From: Bacteroidia bacterium
GTDB lineage: Bacteria; Bacteroidota; Bacteroidia; B-17B0; Aurantibacillaceae
DNA: 64,000 nucleotides
NCBI GenBank assembly: GCA_016787445.1
Contig: JAEUTQ010000043.1
Coordinates: forward strand, 1 to 64,000
Direction: 5' to 3'
Each line of letters opens with the position of its first letter. Position 1 is the first letter of the stretch. Shown here piece by piece: positions 313-23,722 of the stretch. The position numbers and the translations under genes are program-made. The notes under the pieces are model-generated. The model saw nothing but the letters and a program-made list of their open reading frames with translations, made no database searches and was not told the origin of the DNA.

Positions 313-349
313 GTCGCTGACCCGATAGCTATCGGGATGTCGAAGCGAC
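313..349. repeat. REP-like nested palindrome
   Basis: A perfect 16-bp palindrome, CCCGATAGCTATCGGG (321-336), is enclosed by a second inverted pair, GTCGCT (313-318) and AGCGAC (344-349). The outer arms resemble the dispersed GTCGA-type repeats at 4298-4322 and 34888-34912. It lies between two genes and is probably an intergenic dispersed repeat. Confidence 0.6.
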
Positions 350-20010: not shown

Positions 20011-21423
20011 ATGAAAAAAAATTACTTTCTTTTAATTCTATTTATTGCCTTATCCATTCGATTGAATTCTCAATGTAATGCTTCATTTAATTATACAGTT
20101 GGAGCAAACGGTAATGTAACATTTAGTAGTACTTCAACAGGAACAAATAGTATTACACACTATGGATGGTCTTTTGGAGATGGCGGACAAACCGGTGGCA
20201 TTGCTTCAAGTACGGTTAATCACACATATTTAAATAATGGTGCCTTTACTGCCACTTTAACCATACAGGATTCTTTATTTGTGTGTTATAGCAGTGTTGC
20301 CGTTACTTTAACTGTTACCACTGCGCCTTGTACTGGTTCAGTTTCCATTTTCTCAACGCCACTCCCAAGTGGAGTTTATGGCTTCTCAACACCAACAGGA
20401 CCTTCGTTCGCCTTTAACACATCTTATACATGGAATTATGGCGATGGTAATTTTTCAAATGGTTTAGGATTAAGTTCAGTATCGCACACTTACATGGCTT
20501 CCGGTAATTATACCGTAACATTAAGCGTTACTGATCCGTTTTCTATTTGTACTTATACCACGAGTACAGTTGTAACTGTGAGTGTCGCTCCTTGTAATGT
20601 GAATTCAAACTTCACCTATTCTACCGGTTCAAACGGACTGGTCACATTCAATAACACAACAACAGGAACAACTGCTACCACAAATTATTTATGGAACTTC
20701 GGTGATGGAGGTTTTTCAACACTCATGAATCCAAGTCACACCTATACCGCTAACGGTACTTACACCGTAAGTCTGATAGCGTCAGATTCTATTTCCTTCT
20801 TTTGCCAAAGCGCATTTACAACAACCGTTCTGGTCAACTCCATTCCGTGCCTTGCTGTATCTAATTTCACAGTTAGTAAAGACAGCTCTATGGCCTTTAC
20901 GTGGAATGCTTACGCAAATTATAATCCAAATACTGTTAGCGCTATGTGGAATTGGGGTGATGGAAATACAAGTTTTGGTTTATATCCTGCGCACACTTAT
21001 TCTGCCGCCGGATTTTATAATATATGTTTAACCGTAACCGTAAATTGTTTAAGCGGACCTCTCACCTCAAGTACCTGTGTGAATACCAATATTTATAAAA
21101 TGAGCGGCAACAACGCATTAATCTATTTAAATGTAAAACCCGCATCACTTTTATCAGTTAATGAACCAATATCTATTCCGGAACAATTAATTGTAAGTCC
21201 AAACCCTACTTCTGGCCAAATAACTCTTCAAACAAACACAACGGTAAGTTCTACAGAAATTTATGTATATAATTTATTGGGAGAATTGGTTTACAAAAAA
21301 GAAGCAGAAGTAATTAACGGAGAAATTCATATGGAATTGCCATCTCAGGAGTTACAATCCGGTAGTTATTTTCTTAAACTTAAAGACCATTCACTTTCTC
21401 AGAAAATAATACTAATCAAGTAA
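20011..21423 (+). CDS. Multi-PKD protein with T9SS type A sorting domain
   Basis: 470 residues. A signal peptide ends near residue 20 (RLNSQC). Four PKD-like repeats follow, marked WSFGDGG (53-59), WNYGDG (141-146), WNFGDG (228-233) and WNWGDG (313-318). The end, about residues 392-470 (IVSPNPTSGQITL to IILIK), is a classic type A sorting domain, which directs export through the type IX system and anchoring at the surface. It is a likely adhesin or structural surface protein. It is 105 bases after the PKD lipoprotein and is followed by two terminators. Confidence 0.9.
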   Translation: MKKNYFLLILFIALSIRLNSQCNASFNYTVGANGNVTFSSTSTGTNSITHYGWSFGDGGQTGGIASSTVNHTYLNNGAFTATLTIQDSLFVCYSSVAVTLTVTTAPCTGSVSIFSTPLPSGVYGFSTPTGPSFAFNTSYTWNYGDGNFSNGLGLSSVSHTYMASGNYTVTLSVTDPFSICTYTTSTVVTVSVAPCNVNSNFTYSTGSNGLVTFNNTTTGTTATTNYLWNFGDGGFSTLMNPSHTYTANGTYTVSLIASDSISFFCQSAFTTTVLVNSIPCLAVSNFTVSKDSSMAFTWNAYANYNPNTVSAMWNWGDGNTSFGLYPAHTYSAAGFYNICLTVTVNCLSGPLTSSTCVNTNIYKMSGNNALIYLNVKPASLLSVNEPISIPEQLIVSPNPTSGQITLQTNTTVSSTEIYVYNLLGELVYKKEAEVINGEIHMELPSQELQSGSYFLKLKDHSLSQKIILIK

Positions 21424-21613: not shown

Positions 21614-21644
21614 AAAAAGCCCGGTGTTTGTTCCGGGCTTTTTT
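21614..21644. terminator. Second tandem terminator
   Basis: AAAAAGCCCGG and CCGGGCTTTTT pair over an 8-base loop. It lies 30 bases after the first terminator and only seven bases before the left end of the structured element. Confidence 0.85.
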
Positions 21645-21650
21645 ATTTTT

Positions 21651-22099
21651 ACTTTTTTCCTTGATGAAAAAAGTAAACAAAAAAATCAAGACGCCGAAAG
21701 GCATTGCGGCGGTAGCCGCACCGTTCCAAAAAGCAGGCCCCAACTCGGCAGTGCCGAGCCGGGAGACCCCACCCTGCTTTTTGTTCACTATGCTGCCCGG
21801 CGTCGGTTCCTCCAATTAGCATTTTACTCCATTTTATCTGAACATTCCCAATATTCAACAGTACTCCATTCGGAGGCATCCTCGAAGACGATATTACCGA
21901 AAACCGGCCTCATTTTATCCGGTTTTTTATGCGCAACAAATTGCGTTAAGCCAAATGGGAAGCTCCGCAGGCGGGCCAAGGAGATCACCCATTTGGTAGC
22001 AATTTGTAAGCATAAAAAATTATGACCGTAGGGAGTAAAGGATAAAATGAAGCCTTGATTTCTTTTGTTTCTTTTCTGCATCAAGGCAGAAAAGAAAGT
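21651..22099. mobile_element. Non-coding element with terminal inverted repeats and two nested cruciform cores
   Basis: The left end (21651-21690) and the reverse complement of the right end (22054-22099) match over about 40 bases with small gaps, both running ACTTT...CTTGATG...AACAAAA...ATCAAG. Each end also folds on itself: ACTTTTTTC/GAAAAAAGT on the left, TTTCTTTTCTGC/GCAGAAAAGAAA (12 bp perfect) on the right. Core 1 (21690-21804) nests GACGCCG/CGGCGTC around TGCGGC/GCCGCA, AAAAAGCAGG/CCTGCTTTTT and CTCGGC/GCCGAG. Core 2 (21910-22050) nests five stems. Core 1 is richer in GC than its surroundings. No transposase is encoded; it may be a MITE-like element or a structured RNA locus. Confidence 0.65.
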
Positions 22100-22180: not shown

Positions 22181-23722
22181 ATGTCACAGAAGCCTGAAGA
22201 TTTTTTTAAGAATGTTATCTCTCATTGTAAAGAGTACGGTTATATTTTCCCATCCAGCGAAATTTACGACGGACTAAGCGCCGTTTACGATTATGGTCAA
22301 TATGGTGCCGAATTAAAGAAAAACATCCGTGAATACTGGTGGCGCGCCATGGTGCAAATGCACGAAAACATTGTTGGTATCGATGCGGCCATTTTCATGC
22401 ACCCTACCACTTGGAAAGCCAGCGGACACGTAGATGCTTTTAACGACCCTTTAATCGATAACAAAGACAGTAAAAAACGCTACCGTGCTGATGTGCTTAT
22501 TGAAGAGCATGTGGTTAAGATTGAAGATAAGATTAATAAAGAAGTTGAAAAGGCGGCGAAACGCTTCGAGAATTTTGATGAAGCCATGTTCAGGAGCACC
22601 AATGCACGTGTAAAGGAATATCAGGATAAAATTGACAGCATTAATAACCGTTTTAAAAACGCCATGGACAAAGGCGATTTAGCGGAAGTGAAACAGATTA
22701 TTGTTGACTGTGAAATTGTTTGTCCGATTAGCGGAAGCCGTAATTGGACGGACGTTAGACAGTTTAATTTAATGTTCTCAACCAGCATGGGCTCGGTAGC
22801 TGAAGAAGGTAACACCATTTATCTTCGTCCTGAAACTGCACAGGGTATTTTCGTTAACTTCCTGAATGTGCAAAAAACAGGACGCATGAAAATTCCGTTT
22901 GGTATTGCTCAAACCGGTAAAGCTTTCCGTAATGAGATTGTTGCCCGTCAGTTTATTTTCCGCATGCGCGAATTCGAACAAATGGAAATGCAATTTTTTG
23001 TTCGTCCGGGTACTGAAATGGAATGGTACGAATACTGGAAAAAAGCCCGTTTAAAATGGCATCAAAGTTTAGGATTAGGGAATGAAAAATATAAGTATCA
23101 CGACCATTTAAAACTGGCGCATTATGCTAACGCTGCTTGCGATATTGAATTTGCTTTTCCATTTGGATTTAAAGAATTAGAAGGCATTCACTCACGCACC
23201 GATTTCGATTTAAAACAACACGAACAATTCAGCGGAAAAAAATTACAATACTTCGATCCTGAATTAAATCAGAATTATGTGCCTTATGTTGTAGAAACAT
23301 CTGTTGGTCTGGATCGTTTATTCTTAGCCATCTTAAGCGCAGGATTAAAAGAAGAAGAACTGGAAGGCGGAGATAAGCGCACCGTATTAAACTTACCTCC
23401 TGCTCTCGCCCCAATAAAAGCAGCCATTTTACCATTAGTGAAAAAGGACGGCTTACCGGAATTAGCAGAGAAAATCATGAAAGAATTAATGTTCGATCAT
23501 ATCGTAACTTACGACGAAAAAGATACTGTAGGTCGCCGTTACAGACGACAAGATGCCATTGGTACACCGTATTGCATTACGGTTGATCATGATAGTTTAA
23601 ATGACAACAGTGTAACGATTCGCGAACGTGATACCATGAAACAAGAACGCGTAAAAATCAGCGAACTTGCCAGAATTCTTGATGAAAAAGTAAGTCTGAA
23701 AAGTTTACTCAAACAATTATAA
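22181..23722 (+). CDS. glyS: Glycine--tRNA ligase (single-chain, class II)
   Basis: 513 residues, alpha2-type GlyRS as in Bacteroidota and eukaryotes. Class II features are present: IYLRPETAQGIFVNF near motif 2, then FRNEIVARQFIFRMREFEQMEM in sense as the motif 2 loop region, and a C-terminal anticodon-binding domain (about 400-513). It charges tRNA-Gly in the cytoplasm. It stands alone with its own -7 box and a terminator at 23751. Confidence 0.97.
   Translation: MSQKPEDFFKNVISHCKEYGYIFPSSEIYDGLSAVYDYGQYGAELKKNIREYWWRAMVQMHENIVGIDAAIFMHPTTWKASGHVDAFNDPLIDNKDSKKRYRADVLIEEHVVKIEDKINKEVEKAAKRFENFDEAMFRSTNARVKEYQDKIDSINNRFKNAMDKGDLAEVKQIIVDCEIVCPISGSRNWTDVRQFNLMFSTSMGSVAEEGNTIYLRPETAQGIFVNFLNVQKTGRMKIPFGIAQTGKAFRNEIVARQFIFRMREFEQMEMQFFVRPGTEMEWYEYWKKARLKWHQSLGLGNEKYKYHDHLKLAHYANAACDIEFAFPFGFKELEGIHSRTDFDLKQHEQFSGKKLQYFDPELNQNYVPYVVETSVGLDRLFLAILSAGLKEEELEGGDKRTVLNLPPALAPIKAAILPLVKKDGLPELAEKIMKELMFDHIVTYDEKDTVGRRYRRQDAIGTPYCITVDHDSLNDNSVTIRERDTMKQERVKISELARILDEKVSLKSLLKQL

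Follow-up and report, generated by a model that had tools for sequence, protein, structure and literature searches.

A probable non-autonomous mobile element built of loop-plus-guide hairpin ends and structured modules in an intergenic region of a member of the Bacteroidia

The window analysed here, a stretch of 64,000 nucleotides from contig JAEUTQ010000043.1 of a member of the Bacteroidia (assembly GCA_016787445.1), contains a 450-bp non-coding element, the limits of which were set by comparison of copies. Upstream lies a gene for a secreted PKD-domain protein (20011–21423) and downstream a gene for a class II aminoacyl-tRNA synthetase (22181–23722), probably GlyS. Two terminator-like hairpins stand immediately 5' of the element, one of them at 21614–21643, in agreement with an earlier note on this DNA, which had placed the element just after a terminator. 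The same note had described a foldable non-coding element with inverted-repeat ends, a description borne out by the sequence, by folding and by the comparison of copies (Table 1). The imperfect inverted ends of about 40 bases comprise two pairs of segments, 21648–21685 with 22060–22097 (76%) and 21669–21690 with 22054–22075 (82%). Each end was also said to form its own hairpin, with loops CTTGAT and ATCAAG; both hairpins are found, with perfect 12-bp stems, and each loop can also pair with a 6-mer (hereafter the guide) that lies inward of the hairpin to which the loop belongs, a feature absent from that note. The nested stems listed for core 2 and the nesting of core 1 are both present in the minimum-free-energy fold. 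One copy of a small palindrome, ACCCGATAGCTATCGGGA, occurs at window 320–337, outside every element studied.

Table 1 Parts of the element and the basis on which each was assigned.
Feature	Window coordinates	Strand	Basis
Whole element	21648–22097	+	Copy comparison for limits; about 10 other copies in host genome
Left terminal hairpin, loop CTTGAT at 21660–21665	21648–21677	+	Perfect 12-bp stem in sequence; in MFE fold
Left guide ATCAAG, complementary to left hairpin loop	21685–21690	+	Sequence; loop/guide covariation across genomes
Core 1, type 1a structured module	21690–21804	+	Fold z -4.4; covariation 9/36 pairs
Middle segment, non-coding, common to copies with differing cores	21805–21902	+	Copy comparison
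Core 2, type 2a structured module	21903–22056	+	Fold z -6.8; covariation 22/45 pairs, 16 sequences
Right guide CTTGAT, complementary to right hairpin loop	22054–22059	+	Sequence; loop/guide covariation across genomes
Right terminal hairpin, loop ATCAAG at 22080–22085	22068–22097	+	Perfect 12-bp stem in sequence; in MFE fold

The fold of the whole element has a z of -9.7 for the + strand and of -10.1 for the - strand, none of 100 shuffles being as stable, and z ranged from -5.1 to -11.5 in eight full elements. Pfam found no domain in the ORFs that overlap it. The middle segment was considered as a coding region, as a minus-strand peptide seemed conserved, but was rejected on account of stops and frameshifts among the copies, and the earlier view that no gene explains the element therefore holds. 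A triple helix formed by the U-rich linker and the purine arm of the end was another idea considered, but inspection failed to separate mirror from direct repeats. Rfam gave no match for the element, and just weak, low-complexity hits under gathering scores at a permissive threshold; a Flavo-1 RNA match was seen at 737–817 of locus L182, separate from the element.

The copy search that the earlier note had proposed showed the element to be multicopy in both the host and related genomes. The host genome (G000; 3.77 Mb in 83 contigs) holds 20 matches, distributed over about 14 places, of which seven lie at contig ends, and flank mapping identified three contig-end pairs (C38/C59, C19/C34 and C58/C5) as halves of single copies, which leaves about ten full or partial copies besides that of the window. 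A relative from the same genus, G007, has two copies 93–94% identical over the full length, plus several others, with further elements at C1:250k and C3:431k. Comparison of copies distinguished left ends of type A or B, core 1 of type 1a or 1b, core 2 of type 2a, 2a', 2b or 2c (type names coined in this analysis) and several right ends, around a common middle. These types are combined differently from copy to copy, and the interior modules are exchangeable. Some copies contain small palindromes such as CCCGATAGCTATCGGG, placed at a hairpin or next to one, which other copies lack, and the bases of the hairpins coincide with the limits of the copies. Palindrome-like inserts around CCGCCGCGGCGG were seen in two further loci (L322 and L324) within core 2 segments, and within the right end of L322 as well, all of which are uninterrupted in other copies.

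Ten sites of the host genome were compared with G007, in which the flanks are about 94–98% identical, and nine of them differ; the same make-up was seen only at C58/C5, the counterpart of C4:35k in G007. At three sites the element is missing in G007, its place being taken by 44 unrelated bases at the window site, 11 at C16 and 14 at C19/C34. Three others hold unrelated palindromic repeats (C38/C59, C52 and C44, the last compared by its left flank only) and a further three a differently built member of the family (C75, C64, where the orientation is inverted, and C1). No target-site duplication was seen at the three empty sites, where the spacers are rearranged, and the lack of a clean insertion junction at the compared sites counts against mobility. 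The sharp junctions may stem from functional flanks or from site preference, and transposition need not account for all turnover between the two genomes, part of which could be due to loss or to recombination with other strains. As to the other repeats of G007, one palindromic family (CCCCTTAGCAGGGGAGAAATCAGTCGTGG...) occupies two intergenic sites (L235 and L238) that hold a window-type element in the host, and a third family (ACTCACCCCCAAG...CTCTCTACGCGTAGAGAGGGGG) starts in L239 at the junction where the host's C44 has a window-type element.

The hairpin with a 6-nt loop complementary to an inner-side guide reaches well beyond this genus. A scan of one genome per species returned at least 119 stretches, no census since a single loop sequence was used, and among the matches listed nearly all came from Bacteroidota, with single records labelled as a Margulisiibacteriota MAG and a Chlorobi MAG. 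Loop and guide change together (ATCAAG, TTCAAG, GTCAAG, GGCAAG, AGCAAG and ATCAGG); when the commonest loop, ATCAAG, was set aside, 18 of 279 hairpins had a matching guide, against a mean of 2.7 and a largest value of 7 after shuffling. Stems were perfect in 60 of the 63 ends examined, none of which contained a G.U or A.C pair. Elements with two ends, 457–525 bp long, occur in other genera (L120, L144, L146 and L182), and plasmid pILYOP01 of Ilyobacter polytropus (Fusobacteriota) carries six near-full and about eleven partial copies, its two-ended elements measuring 430–460 bp. The end type is thus spread across Bacteroidota and present in one Fusobacterium, I. polytropus. A 19-mer, ACTCGCTnCGCTCARACAG, is common to copies in the window's genus, Arcicella, Cellulophaga sp. 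BC115SP, Flectobacillus loci and Ilyobacter. Intergenic positions account for 116 of 124 ends, and no protein recurred beside the ends when neighbouring genes were compared. In the pILYOP01 copies (L275–L287) a further inverted repeat, approximately TAAATTACTGAATTTAT, lies on the outside, and some of the hairpin stems are interrupted by a short insert that contains CTCCCTTCGGTCAGGGC; a lone end in NC_014633.1 338000–343500 (L305) lies just upstream of the annotated sbcD, which encodes a hairpin-cutting nuclease subunit, possibly by coincidence.

Both cores covary, although the cells counted are not independent events. In core 1 (eight sequences, all from genus g1) 98.3% of cells were paired and 9 of 36 pairs had changed on both sides, a result reached by none of 500 shuffles. 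For core 2 the alignments had been fitted to the model, which tilts them toward the structure. Nine sequences from genera g1 and g10 gave 96.3% paired cells and 18 of 45 pairs changed on both sides; with 16 sequences, which include eight copies found by the model in two other families of the class (G254 and G054), the values were 96.8% and 22 of 45 (0/500 shuffles). In this larger set doubly changed cells numbered 89, compared with 25 in shuffles, and the best slid control had 10 pairs. The earlier note had named a single copy, unconserved stems or a protein product as grounds against its reading, and none of the three applies. On the + strand of core 2, G.U pairs occupy 22 cells in 10 columns and A.C pairs 3 cells in 2 columns, an excess which suggests that this module folds as RNA from the + strand, a lean shared by the fitted alignment. 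Core 2 occurs alone in other genera and was also found with one hairpin end, so that two ends are not always needed, a point against the mobile reading. The core 1 model had no match outside the genus in 295 genomes of the class and 87 of the family; inspection by eye shows layouts resembling that of core 1 in L120, L144 and L164.

These data bear on the possibility that we are dealing primarily with a gene for a structured non-coding RNA, whose dispersal, through duplication or as a passenger of other mobile DNA, would be secondary. The strong covariation, the unpaired motifs conserved in core 2 (AAGCT..AGATC and TTCCGACGnnAGGAGGAAA) and the columns with G.U on its + strand all speak for such a gene. 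However, copies swap modules and disappear between close relatives, the inverted hairpin ends and limits at hairpins resemble DNA mobility, the G.U count is favoured by the fitted alignment itself and Rfam is without a match, so that we consider this reading doubtful. The structured RNA proposed in the earlier note is supported in part, in that both cores covary and G.U exceeds A.C on the + strand of core 2.

We regard as unlikely a second alternative, in which a Y1 HUH transposase (RAYT) mobilises an element of REP/BIME type. The hairpin ends, the base-pairing guide and the lack of a target-site duplication recall single-strand mobility of the IS200/IS605 type, Y1 genes are present in the host genome, and Bacteroidetes Y1 genes of subclass 2.6 are reported (PMC6006769) to be flanked by atypical secondary structures which are copied elsewhere in the genome. 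Nevertheless, none of 34 Y1 loci in 13 genomes was flanked by ends of the element, many having palindromes of their own, and, of 113 ends, one has GT[AG]G and three have CGTC close to the foot of the hairpin; the link was rejected. Moreover, G015 and G012 carry ends, yet gave no Y1 match. The palindromes flanking Y1 transposase genes in six loci (L061, L063, L245, L256, L266 and L271), for example CGCCCTAAAGGGCG, CGGATTATAAATCCG and TCCGAAGGATT..AATCCTTCGGA, are consistent with other REP-like systems.

It is very improbable that the element serves as a terminator of transcription or as some other regulatory structure tied to a gene: its position downstream of a terminator and the stability of its hairpins would fit, but the ends favour neither gene 3' ends nor convergent gaps (20/82 against 54/271 background gaps), as for a tolerated insertion. 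Hardly credible is a chromosome-organising site, another suggestion of the earlier note, since, although dispersed palindromes in other bacteria bind architectural proteins, occupancy here differs between genomes of one genus, which leaves the idea without support, and both orientations occur on the Ilyobacter replicon with no preference evident by eye.

We therefore favour, with a probability of roughly 0.6, the reading of the window element as a copy of a non-autonomous mobile element, modular and devoid of genes, whose working resembles that of a large MITE or BIME, or of the BOX elements of pneumococci. A trans-acting enzyme would recognise the folded ends, as single strands or as a cruciform, and move or exchange the cassette; recombination between shared ends and modules, together with nested insertion of small palindromes, could have produced the patchwork; and transcription of the + strand of core 2, with selection on the resulting RNA, is also probable. 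Against mobility counts that no enzyme could be linked to the ends, either among the neighbouring proteins or at the 34 Y1 loci. No autonomous partner with the same ends was present among the matches in the host's own genome, the neighbours of ends or three lone Ilyobacter ends, a search that rare partners could escape. Of the three options in the earlier note, a MITE mobilised in trans fits best, with copy number, boundaries, presence and absence between genomes and the lack of an internal gene in its favour, and with the missing target-site duplication and autonomous partner against it. The modular, nested and site-swapping make-up exceeds that of a plain MITE.

More tentatively, and with low confidence, the element could belong to an undescribed mobile class common to Bacteroidota and Fusobacteriota, in which a cassette of one or two structured RNA modules between loop-plus-guide hairpins would be moved or swapped in trans by an enzyme that reads folded ends, with certain intergenic sites preferred and the RNA aiding its own spread. 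We found no published description of the element in the open-access literature. A hairpin-plus-guide end found across one major phylum and in a second, with neither an enzyme nor an Rfam entry, points to an unrecognised route of mobilisation that has shaped intergenic DNA. Since close relatives carry different repeat families at corresponding sites, the way in which bacterial intergenic spacers turn over becomes directly testable.

Among known systems, IS200/IS605 elements have ends made of a terminal hairpin with guide base-pairing nearby. This likeness, a lead from general knowledge, has its limits, as the guide of the window element pairs with the hairpin loop, its ends are symmetric and inverted, and no transposase is linked to them. 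With MITEs the element shares terminal inverted repeats and the absence of coding capacity; neither a target-site duplication nor an autonomous partner, both normally to be expected in MITEs, was found, and we therefore file it as a MITE/BOX-like variant rather than a proven member. REP/BIME units with RAYT (TnpA-REP) are similar in their hairpin units, inverted pairs, intergenic position and lack of a visible target-site duplication, but the window element has no GTAG or CGTC foot, is ten times longer per unit and has no Y1 link (PMC6006769, PMC3733652). The BrickBuilt MITE of Porphyromonas gingivalis, as far as the part of PMC4596501 drawn on here describes it, is likewise an intergenic, gene-free Bacteroidota MITE with small inverted-repeat ends; unlike the window element, it is built on a 23-nt tandem minisatellite and is restricted to a single species. 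Pneumococcal BOX elements, compared by description from the portion of PMC3049150 used here, have the form boxA-boxB(n)-boxC and measure 67–637 bp. Three features ascribed to them were not found for the window element: reported duplications of the target site, a partner IS that has been proposed, and enrichment between convergent genes. For BOX, that portion describes neither loop-plus-guide hairpins at the ends nor a pair of covarying cores. They are nevertheless modular, intergenic, structured and non-autonomous, with flanking modules around exchangeable middle ones and nested insertions among repeat families. The window element has the same arrangement of flanking and exchangeable modules, and also the compensatory changes of a structured RNA in the stems of both cores; in type, BOX elements and MITEs are its nearest counterparts.
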